NCBI GenBank assembly: GCA_027357125.1
Contig: DAHVVW010000003.1
Coordinates: forward strand, 1 to 17,132
Reading direction: 5' to 3'
DNA length: 17,132 nt
From: Clostridiales bacterium
GTDB lineage: Bacteria; Bacillota; Desulfitobacteriia; Desulfitobacteriales; Desulfitobacteriaceae
In this document: piece by piece, positions 4,406 through 7,720 of the stretch
Layout of the letters: each line of letters begins with the position of its first letter
How positions within the stretch are numbered: position 1 is the first letter of the stretch
The notes under the pieces: model-generated
What the model was told of the DNA's origin: nothing
The model's input: only the letters and a program-made list of their open reading frames with translations
Databases searched by the model: none
Position numbers and translations under genes: made by a program

Positions 4406-4442
4406 GGAATTCCGATATCACAAAAAAATCGGACTTCGGGCT

Positions 4443-4528
4443 TTCCTACGCTGGTTCTAACCAGATCAGGTTCAAAGGGTTAAGAGTTCCCTCTTTCTCA
4501 GCCCCGAACGGGGCACCCCTAGCAGAAA
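4443..4528 (-). promoter_or_regulatory. TPP riboswitch aptamer (THI element)
   Basis: The minus strand carries the conserved THI-box pieces in order: GGGGTGCC, GGGCTGAGA, AACCCTTTGAACCTGATC, TGGTTAGAACCAGCGTAGG. A P1 helix can form between TTTCTGC (4522-4528) and GTAGGAA (4443-4449). It lies about 220 bases upstream of thiS with an intrinsic terminator between, so TPP should shut off the whole thi operon by premature termination. Confidence 0.97.
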
Positions 4529-4536
4529 TTTAATTC

Positions 4537-6924: not shown

Positions 6925-7587
6925 TTACTGTACAGCTTTCATCAAATTCTTGACAAACACAGCTTCCGGAACTGCTCCCTCAAACTGAACATCTTCATTA
7001 ATAACTGACTTGGGAACGCCATATACATTATATTTTTGGGACAGATCCGGATACTCAGTTGCTTCAATCGATTCAGCCTTAATATGTGAATTAAGCATGG
7101 CAAACTGGTGAGCCGTGCGCACGGCACGGGGACAATGCGGTCAGGTAGGTGTGACAAAAACTTTAATTGTCACATCTTTCTGAACAGATTCCACCTGTTG
7201 GATTACATCTGCAGTAAGCTTAATCTTACCGCTGGAAAGATCCGCTAAGTCTTCAATAAGTACCCCGAACTCATACCCGGAAGGAATACCATAAAACCTT
7301 ACCCCGGTATCAGTTCCTTCTTCCTTCTCCAGTACCAGAGCAGGAAAATACTGAACATTATATTCCTTAGCCTTGTCTTCTGTAGTAGCCTTGTGGACAA
7401 CTAAGTTCAACTTATCGCTTAGATCCACGACTTCCTGAGCAATCTGCTCCGTCTCTGAACAATACATGCACTCTCCCGGCTCACTGGGATCTTGCAAGAA
7501 GAGACGGAGAGTTACCGGATTAACCAGTTGCTGGGAAAAATAGTCCTTGATTGCTGTAGCATCCTTCTCGGACAACAACTTAGCCAA
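6925..7587 (-). CDS. Selenocysteine-containing protein disulfide oxidoreductase (glutaredoxin/PDO-like, two thioredoxin folds)
   Basis: Read through the TGA at 7141-7143, this is one 220-residue protein. Residues 1-110 form a thioredoxin fold with C40-M-Y-C43 and a cis-Pro loop (YFPAL, P82). Residues 140-220 form a second fold starting TIKVFVTPT, then U149-P-H-C152, and a second cis-Pro loop in YNVYGVPKS (P192). Two tandem thioredoxin folds of about 220 residues are the known layout of the PDO/glutaredoxin-like family, whose C-terminal site is CPxC. The TGA replaces exactly the attacking cysteine. A SECIS-like hairpin follows at 7113-7129. The start is TTG at 7585-7587, with AAGGAGGGG about 6 bases upstream. 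Likely role: thiol/diselenide oxidoreductase in the cytoplasm. A nonsense mutation is the alternative, but position, frame and hairpin argue against it. Confidence 0.9.
7113..7129 (-). promoter_or_regulatory. Bacterial SECIS-like stem-loop
   Basis: Eleven bases after the TGA, the minus strand forms CCGUGC-CGUGC-GCACGG: a perfect 6-bp stem with a 5-base loop having G at loop position 2. The loop begins 17 bases after the UGA. Known bacterial SECIS elements have a small apical loop, an early guanine in it, and lie roughly 16-37 bases after the UGA, so this fits recognition by SelB. An alternative zero-loop palindrome (GCCGTGC/GCACGGC) exists in the same bases. Confidence 0.75.
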
Positions 7588-7614
7588 CCTTACCCCTCCT
7601 TAAGTTGAATTGAG

Positions 7615-7676: not shown

Positions 7677-7705
7677 ATTATAACGGACTAACAAACATTT
7701 GTATA
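7677..7705 (-). promoter_or_regulatory. Putative sigma-A promoter of the selenoprotein gene
   Basis: The minus strand has TATACA (7700-7705, 4 of 6 consensus bases) and a consensus TATAAT (7677-7682) with a 17-base spacer. Transcription would start near 7670, giving a leader of about 80 bases that contains the attenuator-like hairpin. The -35 overlaps the palindrome at 7702-7720. Confidence 0.6.
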
Positions 7706-7720
7706 CCCCTTATGGGTATA
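7702..7720. promoter_or_regulatory. CsoR/CstR-like operator palindrome
   Basis: TATACCC and GGGTATA flank a 5-base centre. The core ATACCC-N5-GGGTAT has the arms and spacing of the operators I know for CsoR-family repressors (for example the Bacillus copZA site), which sense copper or persulfides. It overlaps the -35 box of the selenoprotein promoter and lies 80 bases upstream of the divergent ComFB-like gene. No CsoR-family gene is in the window. Confidence 0.45.

Follow-up and report, generated by a model that had tools for sequence, protein, structure and literature searches.

A two-domain PDO gene whose in-frame UGA very probably encodes selenocysteine, with a conserved predicted SECIS hairpin and a putative operator

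Archaeal members of the NCBIfam family TIGR02187 ('PDO_seleno_TRX') possess disulfide reductase/isomerase activity and are reduced by thioredoxin reductase, and the Saccharolobus PDO takes its electrons from NADPH-thioredoxin reductase (available part of PMC7278568). A selenocysteine (Sec) form of the family was listed in 2006 for Carboxydothermus hydrogenoformans and Symbiobacterium thermophilum (PMC1794560), two reviews give TIGR02187 with a UxxC motif and the entry ABB15282.1 (PMC9312934, PMC13188914), and four Asgard sequences have been added (PMC11227280), according to the accessible portions of these sources. Beyond such selenoproteome papers, no Sec-PDO paper was found in the literature searched, as judged mostly from listings. 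The gene described here is a new member of this selenoprotein family, which has been in print since at least 2006; it has the TIGR02187 model and the UxxC motif in common with the Sec-PDOs in the published excerpts, and its UxxC takes the form UPHC, as in eight kin genomes.

The gene lies in a 17,132-nucleotide stretch of DNA from a Clostridiales bacterium, referred to below as the window (Table 1). The read-through protein passed TIGR02187 with 257.8 bits against a cut-off of 185, residues 7-214 aligning with model positions 2-205 of 209, and it displays the two thioredoxin-fold units of that family with CMYC at residues 40-43 and UPHC at 149-152. By phmmer, residues 4-214 aligned with the solved Cys-form archaeal PDOs 1j08 (E 6e-49) and 1a8l (E 1e-46), which carry CPYC at the Sec position, with Cys where this gene has Sec. 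The TIGR02187, Pfam and solved-structure comparisons used the first 215 of the 220 residues, with U entered as C for TIGR02187. The N-terminal domain of AhpF and the fused homologues of that protein (TIGR03140, TIGR03143) are similar over both units, with scores below the cut-offs of those models; the fused homologues have a flavin reductase attached, whereas Sec-PDO is without it and a thioredoxin reductase gene is located elsewhere in the genome. The window also contains a TPP riboswitch (4426-4530, minus strand) ahead of thiamine genes for ThiS, ThiG, a radical SAM/BATS protein, ThiD2 with TMP synthase, and ThiC.

Table 1. Coordinates of the Sec-PDO gene and of the predicted elements around it in the window.
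Feature	Position	Strand	Remarks
Sec-PDO coding sequence	6925..7587	minus	220 aa with U149; TTG start at 7587; TAA stop at 6925-6927
TGA, codon 149, Sec candidate	7141..7143	minus	sequence reading; conserved column
C-terminal active site U149-P-H-C152	7132..7143	minus	C at both positions in 97/97 full-length homologues among matches listed
N-terminal active site C40-M-Y-C43	7459..7470	minus	CxxC in 84/97 full-length homologues among matches listed
Shine-Dalgarno AGGAGG	7595..7600	minus	by reading; 7 nt ahead of TTG at 7587
Predicted bacterial SECIS hairpin	7113..7129	minus	6 bp stem; loop CGUGC at 7119-7123; 17 nt past UGA; -8.8 kcal/mol
Sigma-70-like promoter TATACA-17-TATAAT	7677..7705	minus	3 such sites in the window vs 2.0 expected by chance
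Perfect palindrome TATACCC-N5-GGGTATA, putative CsoR-family operator	7702..7720	unstranded	overlaps the -35 box

The original prediction held that a TGA replaces the first Cys of a C-terminal CPxC, that the frame continues beyond it into a second thioredoxin unit, and that the N-terminal unit keeps its CMYC. This architecture was borne out. In-frame stops of the PDO frame occur at codons 149 and 221 only, and the 71 sense codons past the TGA, scored alone, match Pfam Thioredoxin_3 with an E value of 1.2e-13. Thioredoxin_3 thereby matches on both sides of the TGA, the N-terminal CMYC unit doing so unaided, and the sequence YNVYGVPKS is located near the C-terminal end. By base composition, 71 codons would stay free of stops at a rate of about 1%, and this openness alone is modest evidence.

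To place the gene among its relatives, eight kin genomes were compared: its own (G000), one of the same genus (G001), five of the same family (G003, G004, G008, G011 and G012) and one of the same order (G045), which we take to be Desulfitobacteriales. G001 is the nearest relative, Paradesulfitobacterium ferrireducens PLL0, of a genus placed in Peptococcaceae by NCBI; its gene shows 92-93% identity and has a TGA at the same codon. Matches at E 1e-20 or better were found in 11 of 100 genomes, own included. A full-length form with a single TGA is present in each of the eight kin (68-100% identity). Two TGA matches occur in G088, one of full length (43%) and one partial (55%), and in G005 and G051 the matching frames are longer (558 and 567 aa) and uninterrupted. 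L028, the second TGA-bearing match in G088, fits mainly the C-terminal domain. Of 398 genomes from the phylum, 47 matched TIGR02187 at E 1e-25 or better, 26 of them over the cut-off. From the 42 loci that these two genome searches gave, 36 were read, leaving out five repeats of genes read and L026, a long frame; eight further TGA matches from the 398-genome search lie outside the 42. Among the loci read, 21 have TGA and 14 have Cys at that column, and one (L058) is without the motif; the TGA is embedded in TPT-U-P-x-C in all 21. The N-terminal CxxC has disappeared from four distant Sec forms (L053, L054, L056 and L057), in which UPxC is the sole remaining site.

A protein database search passed 2904 proteins, the best 120 of which were examined. 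Cys occupies both columns 149 and 152 in each of the 97 full-length proteins among them (44-54% identity), an outcome that the prediction had named as supporting it. The remaining 23 are short (60-98% identity) and end, without exception, at TP(T/S) before U; the C-terminal active site is missing from every homologue of at least 60% identity in this set (23/23), and one short entry is named 'alkyl hydroperoxide reductase subunit F'. Of the misannotation as two genes that the prediction expected, the premature end of the first piece is borne out by these 23 entries.

A tree was calculated with the Sec/Cys residue masked. Its 67 rows were the gene in the window, 33 genes from other genomes and 33 database proteins, obtained by taking every third of the 97 full-length ones. 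On this tree the Sec/Cys character needs three changes, and branches with good support require at least two of these. Sec genes of the kin form one group with support 100/95, and long branches leave the deeper placements unsure. Comparison with the nearest relative gave dN and dS of 0.047 and 0.630 before the TGA and of 0.018 and 0.668 after it, corresponding to dN/dS of about 0.07 and 0.03, so the decay looked for downstream of the TGA is absent.

The bacterial SECIS model in the accessible text of PMC13188914 has a loop of 3-9 nt, a stem of 4-16 bp, a G in the first two loop positions, a distance of 16-37 nt from the UGA and an energy of at most -7.5. The predicted hairpin lies within all of these limits (a 5-nt loop with G at its second position, a 6-bp stem, 17 nt from the UGA, -8.8 kcal/mol); its outer loop bases, C and C, are unpaired, whereas those of the published model are mostly paired. 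As a single sequence the hairpin is weak, and the case for it is comparative, because the global folding energy of the 57 nt around the TGA was not unusual (z -0.20, an uninformative result) and 65 of 1000 synonymous recodings folded as well. An Rfam search returned no match at the hairpin position.

All eight kin, among which two pairs have near-identical genes, share the same seven codons from U+4 to U+10. Degenerate columns with an invariant amino acid were unvaried in 8 of 11 cases within U+1 to U+11, in 4 of 65 upstream and in 0 of 37 further downstream, and none of 100,000 random draws was as low as the 12 columns U+1 to U+12. Silent divergence of these kin is high, with dS of 0.63 and 0.67 to the nearest relative and values of at least 1.75 or not computable for the other six. 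When the TGA genes were aligned (21 rows, 17 distinct), 84.3% of pair cells were standard, with U-A/G-C and G-C/G-U/A-U exchanges. Of 500 shuffles, one reached the observed pairing, and likewise one the seven doubly changed cells and one the covariation score; the remaining two of five measures, which count pairs altered on both sides (199/500) and further pair types (323/500), were not above shuffles. RNAalifold gave a weak consensus of -1.7 kcal/mol on the 21 rows. The same columns pair in 56% of cells in the 14 Cys genes, no better than shuffles. Two Sec genes (L038 and L028) pair poorly at the hairpin columns, and the SECIS-like stem of the three genes of family f51 (L043, L045 and L047) lies 3 nt away from its position in the other genes. 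An alternative register, pairing columns 19-23 with 28-32 around a GCGC loop, is 81.2% paired with six doubly changed cells (0/500 shuffles). The register with loop CGUGC is taken as the more probable of the two, because shuffles often equal the GCGC register in pairing (219/500) and in covariation score (91/500).

The genome itself was searched for the machinery that the prediction had named, and all of its parts were found. The draft (2.2 Mb, 383 contigs, 76% complete) contains tRNA-Sec at 66.8 bits, with the next match at 33.8; the Rfam tRNA-Sec model matches 14 of 14 control genomes, over the cut-off in five, so that a high score alone counts. It also contains selA (559 bits), selB (339 bits) and two copies of selD, which scored 408 and 343 bits and each carry a single in-frame TGA. 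The selD loci are L013 (C371) and L014 (C166), and G003 and G045 likewise have two selD over the cut-off. Among the genomes with Sec forms, 19 of 20 possess selA, 17 over the cut-off and G011 and G247 as fragments. The exception is G001, in whose draft (90% complete) the Sec-PDO gene and tRNA-Sec (66.8 bits) are present and convincing selA or selD was not found, perhaps a gap of the draft. selA was over the cut-off in 7 of the 13 genomes where Cys forms alone were read and also in G380, which has both Sec and Cys forms; the Cys forms are therefore not simply due to missing machinery.

These observations were weighed against other readings of the TGA. Were it a real stop, the 148-residue protein with a single active site would be functional and the rest a decaying remnant. 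Public gene calls agree with such an end in that the 23 short homologues among the best 120 of 2904 all finish just before the TGA; dN/dS is nevertheless lower after the TGA than before, the TGA and the downstream frame persist to 68% identity, and the hairpin codons are frozen, making a real stop highly improbable. Nothing was found in favour of a decoding of UGA as Trp or by some nonspecific suppressor, and we regard it as extremely improbable: TGA terminates 3 of the 12 neighbouring genes that were checked, which makes UGA an ordinary stop here as well, and the column is Cys in all 97 full-length homologues of the 120 best. The fragmentation of the draft would favour a sequencing or assembly error converting TGC or TGT to TGA, but other genomes have TGA at the same codon. 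Because the nearest relative, PLL0, likewise has TGA at this codon, the TGA is not an assembly error, and we regard this explanation as vanishingly improbable. Decay, sequencing error and UGA as Trp were all rejected on the basis of dN/dS, the TGA in other genomes, the TGA stops nearby and the Cys column.

A further possibility is that the 148-residue form is the main product and Sec read-through a minor, selenium-dependent one, both products being of importance. UGA-Sec decoding competes with termination in bacteria generally, which we counted in favour of this possibility together with the match of the N-terminal CMYC unit alone to Thioredoxin_3; we consider it unlikely. From the open frame, the Sec/Cys column, the conservation of the hairpin and the machinery genes, we infer that the UGA is very probably decoded as Sec149. 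The selenoprotein reading of the original prediction has held up in its machinery, its Cys and TGA homologues and the lack of decay past the TGA, with the SECIS hairpin in addition, and the gene very probably encodes a Sec-containing two-domain PDO in which the UGA at 7141-7143 is read as Sec149, guided by the hairpin.

The product would be a cytosolic, glutaredoxin/thioredoxin-like two-domain PDO. The SelA/SelB/SelC/SelD system of the cell would decode the UGA as Sec149 under guidance of the hairpin 17 nt downstream. The C-terminal UPHC would act as the attacking site, cycling between the selenol/thiol and a Sec149-Cys152 selenenylsulfide, and the N-terminal CMYC would relay electrons. As the original prediction proposed, the Sec form may be faster than the Cys form or more resistant to oxidation. 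NADPH would keep the protein reduced via thioredoxin reductase, as for archaeal PDOs, and protein disulfides or peroxiredoxins are the probable substrates reduced. A relay from TrxB to the PDO fits, because trxB and the PDO gene have a common putative operator and the Saccharolobus enzyme offers a precedent. Expression is probably controlled by a repressor of the CsoR family acting at the palindrome that overlaps the -35 box.

TATACA-17-TATAAT-type sites are not above chance by number within the window; the palindrome is expected 0.03 times there with up to two mismatches. TACCC-N5-GGGTA starts exactly 36 nt upstream of TATAAT in seven of the eight kin, G008 being without it. ATACCC-N5-GGGTAT has five sites in the own genome vs one for the reversed control, and TACCC-N5-GGGTAT gave 31 forward and 37 reverse matches in the seven other kin vs 6 and 5 for the control. 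Directly after a palindrome stands a CsoR-family gene (PF02583) in all eight kin. In seven of the eight, trxB also follows a palindrome, with a thioredoxin in its place in G045; its identity comes from a family scan in G000 and G008 and from sequence likeness in the rest. Palindromes also precede a thioredoxin-thioredoxin reductase fusion in five kin (domains scanned for G001 and G003), DUF1638 in G000 and by likeness in G045, an SBF permease that resembles ACR3 but scores under the cut-off for it in G000 and by likeness in G003, and DUF5714 in G004 and G008 and by likeness in G012. Many sites are without a sensible target, e.g. L098, L105, L109, L118, L121, L122 and L132. Loci sharing the palindrome comprise 7702-7720 of the window, L059, L124, L101, L123, L126, L135 and L133.

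The regulator keeps C-x24-H-x3-C in the three sequences checked (G000, G008 and G045), a pattern that we take to be the CsoR-like set, of Cu(I)-type CsoR rather than CstR. CstR, a persulfide sensor, has two Cys without the His of CsoR. Since all three regulators retain this His, a CstR reading was not adopted, and the regulator may still sense sulfur species. The S. aureus CstR/CsoR regulons resemble the kin genomes in that a CsoR-family gene is preceded by a palindrome, and differ in their targets, which are cstA/cstB/sqr or copAZ in the available part of PMC5480029 vs the candidate targets trxB, Sec-PDO and thioredoxins here.

The palindrome common to the PDO, trxB and CsoR-family genes suggests a thiol-redox regulon. 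At somewhat better than even odds, this regulon would exist within the order: an autoregulated Cys-His-Cys CsoR-family repressor would bind TACCC-N5-GGGTA over the -35 box and control trxB, Sec-PDO, the thioredoxin-thioredoxin reductase fusion or trxA, and the DUF1638, DUF5714 and ACR3-like permease genes, with a soft-metal or persulfide signal setting the flow from NADPH through TrxB to Sec-PDO. No description of such a regulon was found in the literature searched, by listings plus the accessible parts of PMC9768040 and PMC5480029. The same palindrome may also control the sel genes, since in G008, G004 and G012 a DUF5714 gene that bears it precedes selA in the same orientation. Against this stand the 382-399 nt that separate these genes from selA and the lack of an exact palindrome in those sel loci of G000, G003 and G045 that were read. 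The DUF5714-selA loci are L148, L149, L150 and L151, the own-genome palindrome (L151) having one mismatch.

Gene callers cut Sec-PDO at about 148 residues, and the C-terminal active site is missing from the 23 short entries among the best 120 database homologues. The occurrence of Sec and Cys forms within one family opens them to kinetic comparison. If the regulon is true, the shared palindrome would link the selenoprotein to thioredoxin reductase.
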